DNA of 24,149 bases from a virus. The position numbers and the translations under genes were made by a program. This document shows, piece after piece, positions 2,629-24,149 of this stretch. A model generated the notes under the pieces. The model was given only the letters and a program-made list of their open reading frames with translations, was not told the origin of the DNA and searched no databases. The DNA is taken from the IMG/VR virus record IMGVR_UViG_3300032085_000283, positions 1 to 24,149 of that record; one strand, written 5' to 3'. How positions within the stretch are numbered: the stretch's first letter is position 1; every line of letters begins with the position of its first letter.

Positions 2629-3023
2629 TGGCTTCGGCTACTAAGACAAAACCAGCATTATGGAAACGAATTGTTTCAAGTGTAAAAGCTGGAACTAAAG
2701 GTGGAAGGAAAGGACAATGGTCTGCTCGTAAAGCTCAATTAGCAACAGCAAGGTATAAAAAAGCTGGCGGTGGTTACAAAGGAGCAAAGTCATCTAAGAA
2801 CAGTTTATCTAAGTGGACTAAGCAAAAGTGGGATTATGTTAGTAAAGGTGATAAGAAGAAACCTAAGAAGAAACGTGGTCGTTACTTACCTGAGTCAGTT
2901 AGGAAGAGTCTTAGTCCTTCTCAAAAAGCAAGCACGAATAAAGCTAAAAGAAAAGCTTCAGCAAAAGGAAAGCAAAAAGCTAAGTATAGTAAAGCTGTAG
3001 CTAGAAAAGTAAGGAGAGCATAG
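2628..3023 (+). CDS. DUF5872-like highly basic protein
   Basis: The 131-residue product is extremely rich in lysine and arginine. The N-terminal part has WKRIVSSVKAGTKGGRKGQW and a YKKAGGGYKG segment. The middle has LSKWTKQKWDYVSKG and GRYLPESVRKSLSP. The C-terminal 40 residues are an Ala/Lys/Arg-rich tail. These features match DUF5872 as I remember it, found in large DNA viruses and phages. The tail resembles histone H1 tails in composition, so DNA binding in or near the virion is plausible but not shown. Starts at TAATG and ends at TAGTG. Confidence 0.85.
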   Translation: MASATKTKPALWKRIVSSVKAGTKGGRKGQWSARKAQLATARYKKAGGGYKGAKSSKNSLSKWTKQKWDYVSKGDKKKPKKKRGRYLPESVRKSLSPSQKASTNKAKRKASAKGKQKAKYSKAVARKVRRA

Positions 3024-3403
3024 TGTATAAATTTGGTAGGAAAAGTAAAGAAAGATTAAAAGGGGTAGACGCTAAATTAGTTAATGTTCTTAATGAGCTT
3101 ATTAAGATTATGGATGTTACTATAATAGAAGGCTTACGTACAGAAGAAAGACAAAAAGAGTTACTTAAAAAAGGTGCTACTAAGGTTAAATACTCTAAGC
3201 ATATGGAAGGTAAAGCTGTAGACTTAGCTCCTTATCCTATAGATTGGAAGAATAGAGATGGGTTTCATTATATGGGTGGTATGATTAGAGGAATAGCTAA
3301 ACAACTTAATGTTAAAGTTCGTTGGGGTGGAGACTGGGATTCTGATGGTGATGTAAAAGACAATGGCTTTGATGACTTAGTCCACGTGGAGATACTTGAT
3401 TAA
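3023..3403 (+). CDS. M15-family peptidase endolysin (L-alanyl-D-glutamate peptidase type)
   Basis: Starts at GTG 3023 with AAGGAG upstream. The 126-residue enzyme shows the M15 zinc peptidase signature: GLRT at residues 37-40, SKHMEGKAVDLAP (H60 and D67 as zinc ligands) and DDLVHVE (D118 as likely catalytic acid, H121 as third ligand). The D-x-x-H spacing and the short single-domain form match phage endolysins such as that of phage T5, which cut the L-Ala-D-Glu bond in peptidoglycan. No signal peptide is visible, so release would need a holin, and holin-like genes lie just upstream. A virion-associated role is less likely. Confidence 0.93.
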   Translation: MYKFGRKSKERLKGVDAKLVNVLNELIKIMDVTIIEGLRTEERQKELLKKGATKVKYSKHMEGKAVDLAPYPIDWKNRDGFHYMGGMIRGIAKQLNVKVRWGGDWDSDGDVKDNGFDDLVHVEILD

Positions 3404-22880: not shown

Positions 22881-23111
22881 TTAATATACGAGCTTCCATG
22901 CTTTCTTATATGTCTCACCGACAACTCCACATTGAATCAATCTCTGGCTGTGTAGGTAGTCTGCTTCTCTCTCTCCTATCTCTCCATCTTGGTAGTAGTC
23001 TTCAGGTGCATGGTCTGGAAACATAATAGCACCTATCTGTTCCTTGTTTAATTTTCTGTAATCAATCCCAACTTCTGTAAGTGATTCTATTGTATGCTTA
23101 TCCAGTTTCAT
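22881..23111 (-). CDS. hypothetical small protein (76 aa)
   Basis: AAGGAG precedes ATG 23111 in a leader shared with the next gene. The product (MKLDKHTIESLTEVGIDYRK...) is mixed helix and acidic loop, with APEDYYQDGEIGEREADYLH in the middle and a basic end. No metal or catalytic motif is obvious. About 50 nt of AT-rich DNA separates its stop from the next start. It follows the amidoligase gene by 20 nt. I recognise no family. Confidence 0.7.
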   Translation of the reverse strand: MKLDKHTIESLTEVGIDYRKLNKEQIGAIMFPDHAPEDYYQDGEIGEREADYLHSQRLIQCGVVGETYKKAWKLVY

Positions 23112-23131: not shown

Positions 23132-24149
23132 TTATAAAAACTTATACTGTCTCTTAAGAAAGTAAGAGTGAAGTTCATCACCTAGTACTTTCTTAAATTT
23201 ATATTCTGTGTTATCTCCTAGAAACTTATCTATATGTTCTTTACTACTCTCTAACTCTATACCTTTTTCTATAATTGCATTTAGTATACGAATCCAATTA
23301 CGTATCTTAGTAAAGTTAGTAGTTCCAGAGTGTAGTCTAAACTCTAAGCTACCGTGAAAGTATCTAGAGTGTATATTGAGACCACAGTATCTAGCGTCAT
23401 TATACTTATCTGCACTAGGGACAGAGTCCATACTCTCATAGTAGATGTCTATTAAATCTTCTTCGCTATCTACTCTTAATAGGTCGTCTATACTTAATGG
23501 AAACTCTTGACACCATCTAGAGTCTTGTCTAGAGGGAGGCATCATAGATTTTAAGTATGGCTCAAACTCTTTATACACTATTGCTATATGAGCAACCTGC
23601 CTATAGGTTAAGTCAGTAGAGTCAAAGTGTATATGTAATCCACAACTAGAATTTACTGTTGCGTCGTGTTCTTTTGCCCAATCCGACAAATCTCTTATCT
23701 GTTGTTGAAGTATATCCCCACTTGAAGGAGAGCTTACCATCTCTATTCCTTCATACTCTGATGGTGGACTTATAGAGCCATCATAAGTATGAGCCCAATT
23801 CTTAGGATAGTACATACTATCTTGAACAGGGTATACACATTCAGATTCTATGCCTACTAACCTCTTAACATTTAAGTAGTCAAATGTTTCTGCTACCCTA
23901 GACCTGCTAGGAGGCTCTGCATTCTCTATTCTATCCACACATATAGATAAACCACAAGGTTCACATTCTTCACAGTATGGCTCATCATCATACCAATATG
24001 CATTATCTCTATGTATCTCATATTCGCAATCATAACAATGAGTGTAATTTTCATAGTAGCAATCGCTACAATAGTAATCACCATTAGATGAAGTTAAATG
24101 GTCTTCTAAGAGAATCTCAGTACTGCAAGACTCACACTCGCAATACTGT
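23132..24149 (-). CDS. amidoligase-family protein with N-terminal zinc-binding repeats, 5' partial
   Basis: The frame is open to the right edge, so the GTG at 23938 is not the real start. About 70 residues before it carry repeated cysteine pairs (CSDC, CYDC, CEEC, with CEC and C further out), a LIM/zinc-ribbon-like region. The rest is an amidoligase (COOH-NH2 ligase) as in Pfam Amidoligase_2: GIESE, DGSI, GIEMVSSP, CGLHIHFD, then YCGLNIHSRYFHGSLEFRLH with SGTTN following. Such enzymes use ATP to join a carboxyl to an amine, often on peptides or cell-wall material. The substrate here is unknown. The zinc part may bind protein or nucleic acid. Numbering from 23938: E31, E33, H102, H104, E199, R201. 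Confidence 0.88.
   Translation of the reverse strand, partial: QYCECESCSTEILLEDHLTSSNGDYYCSDCYYENYTHCYDCEYEIHRDNAYWYDDEPYCEECEPCGLSICVDRIENAEPPSRSRVAETFDYLNVKRLVGIESECVYPVQDSMYYPKNWAHTYDGSISPPSEYEGIEMVSSPSSGDILQQQIRDLSDWAKEHDATVNSSCGLHIHFDSTDLTYRQVAHIAIVYKEFEPYLKSMMPPSRQDSRWCQEFPLSIDDLLRVDSEEDLIDIYYESMDSVPSADKYNDARYCGLNIHSRYFHGSLEFRLHSGTTNFTKIRNWIRILNAIIEKGIELESSKEHIDKFLGDNTEYKFKKVLGDELHSYFLKRQYKFL

Follow-up and report, generated by a model that had tools for sequence, protein, structure and literature searches.

An amidoligase with a predicted zinc-finger array closes a four-gene cassette in uncultured phages

Uncultured phages known from metagenomes carry an amidoligase whose N-terminus consists of repeated CxxC pairs, predicted to bind zinc, and whose gene is the last of a conserved four-gene cassette. 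We regard both the zinc-finger/amidoligase fusion and the cassette as real, with hardly any reservation. The DNA under study is a stretch of 24,149 nt from a virus (IMG/VR record IMGVR_UViG_3300032085_000283, positions 1 to 24,149; hereafter the window), which ends inside the gene of this amidoligase, here called AmdB. The most telling context, namely a second CxxC-bearing amidoligase (AmdA), a glutamine amidotransferase and a small partner (SM), lies beyond the contig edge, and the cassette was therefore read from relatives of the window, all of which are metagenomic fragments.

Results

One gene encodes the Cys region and the amidoligase

A minus-strand frame without a start codon is open from the window edge to its stop codon and is a single gene truncated by the contig end (Table 1). 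A sequence-only reading of the window had noted that this frame extends to the edge with about 70 CxxC-rich residues; the number is 71 up to a GTG at 23938. It had also warned that a gene call beginning at this GTG would miss the N-terminus and had taken the Cys region to be fused to the amidoligase domain. Both points are borne out by three IMG/VR contigs, L002, L003 and L004, on which the complete gene encodes 371 aa from an ATG as a single frame, with 93%, 78% and 76% identity to the window copy, respectively. Through these relatives the true start was found: it lies 103 codons upstream of the GTG, the first 33 residues are missing from the window copy, and the ATG falls beyond the contig edge. 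In the relatives this ATG follows one base after the stop codon of the preceding gene, SM, and the AGGAG Shine-Dalgarno sequence of amdB is embedded in the last codons of SM. Between the window and L003, dN/dS is 0.22 for the Cys region compared with 0.19 for the catalytic domain, so that purifying selection acts on the two to a similar degree. Because the GTG is replaced by ATA in L003 and L004 and because the Cys region is under this selection, the GTG is internal to one protein. Together with the full-length relatives, these observations exclude the scenario that the sequence-only reading had named as fatal to its claim, a separate gene that carries the Cys region and ends before 23938.

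Table 1 Features of the AmdB region in the window.
Feature	Position	Strand	Basis
AmdB amidoligase with N-terminal zinc-finger array, 338 aa present	23132..24148	-	open frame and full-length relatives
Visible part of the predicted zinc-finger array, 11 Cys, 5 CxxC	23936..24148	-	LIM matches by profile and fold; purifying selection
GTG, internal valine codon, possible gene-caller start	23936..23938	-	ATA in L003 and L004
Amidoligase_2 catalytic domain (PF12224), glutamine-synthetase/GCS-like fold	23273..23845	-	Pfam, invariant columns, fold
76-aa ORF after AmdB, outside the cassette	22881..23111	-	insertion absent from L002-L004
89-aa ORF, directly after AmdB in L002-L004	22563..22832	-	conserved neighbour

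The N-terminus is LIM-like

The density of CxxC pairs is well above chance. When the whole protein was shuffled, 71 residues held on average 0.13 CxxC and five were never reached in 20,000 trials, while shuffling the Cys region's own letters gave 1.5 CxxC (P = 0.005 for the observed five). Across 45 AmdB relatives the modules follow the pattern CxxC-x17-19-CxxC and are joined by x7, with mostly six CxxC per N-terminus (range four to eight). By profile, the solved proteins that match best are LIM domains, led by CRP1 (1.1e-4) and PINCH1 (2e-4) and followed by many other LIM chains, and the predicted model of AmdB (pLDDT 89.8) has weak fold matches to LMO2, CRP1, Isl1 and PINCH. The Pfam LIM profile (PF00412) scores 13.8 bits, which is below its cut-off of 22.9, and gives 10.2 bits for L003 and 11.0 for L004, with L002 absent from the list.

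What AmdB has in common with the LIM domains of CRP1, PINCH and FHL are CxxC-x17-CxxC modules that end in YCxxCY followed by a short helix. It differs in that x7 rather than x2 separates the modules, CxxC takes the place of HxxC, and two to four modules are present; the modules thus depart from the LIM spacing C-x2-C-x16-23-H-x2-C-x2-C-x2-C-x16-21-C-x2-C/H/D. Of the earlier suggestion of a LIM/zinc-ribbon-like module, the LIM likeness holds by profile and, weakly, by fold, but the array is not a standard LIM domain. "LIM-like single-zinc modules" is a fair name, with zinc binding as a prediction from the cysteine pattern. A phage "LIM domain containing protein" in BFVD also aligns with AmdB, so the LIM likeness had already been noted by automatic annotation; our literature search turned up no paper about it. 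It is plausible that the zinc modules bring the enzyme to a macromolecule, but their role may equally be structural alone, as it is in certain other ligases.

The catalytic domain belongs to the Amidoligase_2 family

Residues 102-292 of the window copy match Pfam Amidoligase_2 with 87.8 bits (cut-off 22, E = 1.4e-24). AmdB carries the motifs GIESE, DGSI, GIEMVSSP, SCGLHIHF and LEFRLHSGT, and the residues of E-x-E, DGS, CGxHxH and EFR hardly vary, if at all, across 44 sequences each of AmdB and AmdA, for which reason both are probably active ligases. In the predicted model, AmdB residues 122-371 are of the glutamine-synthetase/gamma-glutamylcysteine-ligase (GS/GCS) fold, with YbdK (1r8g) matching at Z 12.4 (rmsd 4.0, 224 residues aligned) and glutamine synthetases at Z of about 11-12.

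Relatives encode AmdB in a four-gene cassette

Upstream of AmdB in L002-L004 the gene order is AmdA, class II glutamine amidotransferase, SM and then AmdB. The cassette, with AmdB as its last gene, is present in about 50 uncultured phage contigs. All 50 loci retrieved with SM as query lie in the cassette, and contigs retrieved by the amidotransferase at 37% identity or more have the same order except where the contig ends. AmdA (615-619 aa) combines a CxxC-rich N-terminal half with an Amidoligase_2 domain (Pfam 75.2 bits), and the model of its catalytic domain matches YbdK-type structures of the GS/GCS fold (Z 13.2); for the N-terminal half, the whole-protein fold search gave no clear fold. 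AmdA and AmdB carry three to eight CxxC each, and a single clade of the two is compatible with the tree test (p = 0.59), as would fit a duplication. One record, IMGVR_UViG_3300030101_002855 (63,940 bases; L052, L061), has two different cassette copies and two cyclotransferase genes of the type described below; it could be a chimera that joins the genomes of two related phages.

The amidotransferase of L002-L004 has 334 aa, begins with MCGIFGF, is GlmS-like (PF13522, E 8.5e-18) and has two CxxC in its tail. It keeps Cys2, Arg88, Asn113, Gly114 and Asp133, and in 35 sequences Met1-Cys2 and the four tail cysteines are invariant. The zinc modules of AmdA resemble those of AmdB more closely than a Cys-spacing control in 18 of 44 cases, and those of the amidotransferase tail in 7 of 46. 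That all three enzymes share one zinc docking module is thus supported in part, the similarity being mostly no more than Cys spacing.

SM has 103-105 aa in L002-L004 and a strongly conserved core, and it had no clear match in Pfam, PHROGs, NCBIfam, PDB sequences or INPHARED, where nothing appeared at E up to 1. Its C-terminal end, NIGV, is conserved, in part because the amdB Shine-Dalgarno sequence is embedded in these codons; the last residue of SM is mostly Val, Ala, Ser or Thr and never Glu or Gln.

Downstream of AmdB, the 89-aa ORF has no family match above cut-off. The 76-aa ORF, found elsewhere by tblastn only in one contig (L143/L275, 57% identity), looks like a small accessory insertion. 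At the other end of the window, positions 3023-3403 (+) encode a 126-aa M15-type peptidase of the D-Ala-D-Ala carboxypeptidase family, probably the endolysin. No host was found: the nearest capsid relatives are 21-26% identical, no tRNAs were found and megablast of the window returned no match.

A gamma-glutamyl cyclotransferase accompanies the cassette

A GGACT-type gamma-glutamyl cyclotransferase is encoded about 6 kb from the cassette on the opposite strand, adjoining the terminase genes. It is present in 43 of the 50 cassette contigs, and the other seven stop within about 6.4 kb upstream of AmdA. By comparison, it occurs in 4 of 20 further contigs with an amidotransferase; nearly all of these have a plain amidoligase, and those of L086 and L087 are zinc-bearing. 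Of four phages that have just one zinc-bearing amidoligase, two encode it. The cassette phages appear to form a single lineage, so the link is one of co-occurrence, without proof of a shared pathway, and it may reflect shared phage lineage only. Also beside terminase genes, on contig L165 (2754-3512, +), a 253-aa protein reads like a calcineurin-type phosphoesterase, with no Pfam match at 0.01; OM43 phages with an amidoligase have been reported to carry calcineurin-type phosphoesterase-like genes.

Zinc-bearing amidoligases adjoin amidotransferases in bacterial genomes

In GTDB genomes, an amidotransferase adjoins 28 of the 33 CxxC-bearing amidoligases versus 2 of the 33 plain ones (Fisher 5e-11, a test that ignores kinship). 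The zinc-bearing amidoligases as one clade were rejected (p = 3e-6), so the zinc fusion has recurred or has been lost repeatedly. We compared the clostridial and Omnitrophica pairs L171-L173, L185, L213, L220 and L232 with the cassette. Like AmdB, their amidoligases have an N-terminal CxxC array and an Amidoligase_2 domain with an amidotransferase next door, and in Omnitrophica the tail of the amidotransferase bears two CxxC, as it does in the cassette. They differ in having one amidoligase and no SM, and the clostridial amidoligase branch is far from AmdB in the tree. By our reading of the neighbouring sequences, the Omnitrophica pairs stand beside RadC-like and conjugation-type genes and one clostridial pair beside an integrase, which suggests that these pairs lie on conjugative or integrative-type elements. 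With L226 added, the same set of loci comprises CxxC-amidoligase/amidotransferase pairs from Omnitrophica and gut Clostridia, several of them on integrative/conjugative-type elements. A Brachyspira sp. locus (L238) holds three amidoligase ORFs in 10 kb, each with two to four CxxC, and a GGACT-like gene adjoins; in transposon Tn6164 an amidoligase is reported to adjoin a gamma-glutamyl cyclotransferase (GGCT) (PMC3485107).

Discussion

Class II amidotransferases free ammonia from glutamine, ligases of the GS/GCS fold spend ATP on activating a carboxylate, which is usually glutamate's gamma-carboxyl, and GGCTs cleave gamma-glutamyl groups off as 5-oxoproline. On this background, the amidotransferase of the cassette would hydrolyse glutamine and supply ammonia (or glutamate), AmdA and AmdB with ATP would activate a carboxylate, probably the glutamate gamma-carboxyl, and the activated carboxylate would be joined to ammonia or to an amine of a target macromolecule, the likeliest candidate being a protein. 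Through their zinc modules the enzymes would be held on the target or on each other, and the GGACT encoded elsewhere in the same genomes would remove gamma-glutamyl groups as 5-oxoproline. The cassette would likely serve to change a macromolecule of the host (or of the phage) in the course of infection. That a gamma-glutamyl or amide mark is written and erased in this way, with the zinc modules directing the ligases to a macromolecule, is a tentative proposal from gene content, which, although the best of the readings considered here, we rate as possible rather than probable. The complete version, a reversible system of two zinc-guided GS-fold writers, an amidotransferase feeder, an SM adaptor and a cyclotransferase eraser, is unlikely to be right in every part; we know of no such guided writer/eraser set in phages.

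The same enzymes might instead act on the cell wall, amidating or glutamylating the stem peptides of peptidoglycan, or some other part of the envelope, and thereby blocking superinfection, with the zinc in a structural role. MurT/GatD offers a precedent, as it amidates lipid II by means of a ligase and an amidotransferase and MurT has a Cys4 zinc ribbon. The idea has also been put forward for phiEco32-type clusters, after Iyer et al. 2009, in PMC10580990 and PMC11318856. The N-termini of the cassette proteins, judged by eye, are without a hydrophobic signal sequence, and it is less evident how the zinc-bearing pairs on conjugative-type elements would exclude superinfection through wall chemistry, so that we rate a wall target as rather unlikely. 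Small molecules would be the targets if the cassette served auxiliary nitrogen metabolism, acting on glutamine, glutamate and gamma-glutamyl compounds. According to PMC10945688, Phage-ZRK32 carries an amidoligase, a glutamine amidotransferase, a glutathione synthase and a GGCT, and its addition raised host growth with nitrate or ammonium, an effect of the whole phage. Two amidoligases with three to eight CxxC each would be unexpected for small-molecule metabolism, however, and the tie to mobile elements speaks for a role in conflict more than in feeding; we consider a nitrogen-metabolic role distinctly unlikely.

DNA could also be the target, if the ligases amidated or extended a carboxylated phage base as a protection against restriction and the zinc modules bound DNA. 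Zinc arrays can bind nucleic acid and amidotransferase-dependent base hypermodification exists in phages, both of which fit, but no base-modification gene was recognised among the scanned proteins, which represent part of the contigs' ORFs, and the nearest solved matches of the fingers are LIM domains, which are mostly protein-binding. We judge such a role to be improbable. Least credible is Pup-like conjugation, with SM as a protein tag that one amidoligase attaches and the other detaches, as PafA and Dop, both of the GS fold, do with Pup. Two paralogous GS-fold enzymes with an obligately linked partner of about 100 aa recall that system, and Dop is among the fold neighbours of AmdA (9cku, Z 10.3). 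Yet the C-terminal residues of SM are not the Glu or Gln of such a tag, its conserved C-terminus overlaps the amdB Shine-Dalgarno sequence, its conserved core is unlike Pup, which is disordered, and the amidotransferase would be left without a role; SM as a Pup-like tag is thus disfavoured and, in our estimate, highly improbable. The sequence-only reading had thought host modification or defence evasion conceivable; a known defence system was set aside, as PADLOC returned no defence-system match.

For the targets of phage amidoligases, the cassette provides a compact, testable unit of two ligases, an ammonia source and an obligate small partner. CxxC regions are present on three of its four proteins, and the zinc modules hint at a macromolecular target. 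Elements of Clostridia and Omnitrophica pair zinc-bearing ligases with amidotransferases as well, which suggests that the strategy is a wider one among mobile elements.

Comparison with known phage systems

The cassette was not seen in isolated phages or other INPHARED records, where no listed match reaches AmdB residues before 94 and, among the matches listed, no record has two amidoligase places. The amidoligases of 10 of the 11 INPHARED records inspected lack any CxxC, the exception being the uncultured phage L162 (Manatee Spring). In the OM43 phages MEP401 and MEP402 and relatives, an amidoligase gene is reported along with one for a glutamine amidotransferase (PMC10580990); these are phages which we compared by description only and for which that paper leaves zinc unmentioned. 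In Arthrobacter phage Kovu, a GGCT, an amidoligase and an amidotransferase stand side by side.

The closest comparison is with the phiEco32-type clusters, which, according to citing papers, go back to Iyer et al. 2009 (Mol Biosyst 5:1636) and were represented here by the Zobellviridae PQ867840 and MG592660 and by MW202615. These clusters combine an amidoligase, a PF14395 ligase, an amidotransferase, a GGCT and an ATP-grasp protein. Each such phage, like the cassette phages, has an Amidoligase_2 protein, a glutamine amidotransferase-like gene and a gamma-glutamyl cyclotransferase; an amidotransferase beside an amidoligase, with a GGCT in the genome, is found in the relatives, outside the window. 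The phiEco32-type phages use a PF14395 COOH-NH2 ligase and ATP-grasp, and their amidoligases are without zinc modules, whereas the cassette phages have a second Amidoligase_2 protein, CxxC-rich regions on three enzymes and SM. PF14395 and RimK-type ATP-grasp were each found in none of 25 cassette contigs, which are possibly incomplete, while the reference phages were positive. Both kinds of phage thus have a core of two ligases of the GS fold, one class II amidotransferase and one GGCT in common. What is new in the cassette phages is the presence of zinc modules and of SM, with AmdA substituting for the PF14395 ligase.
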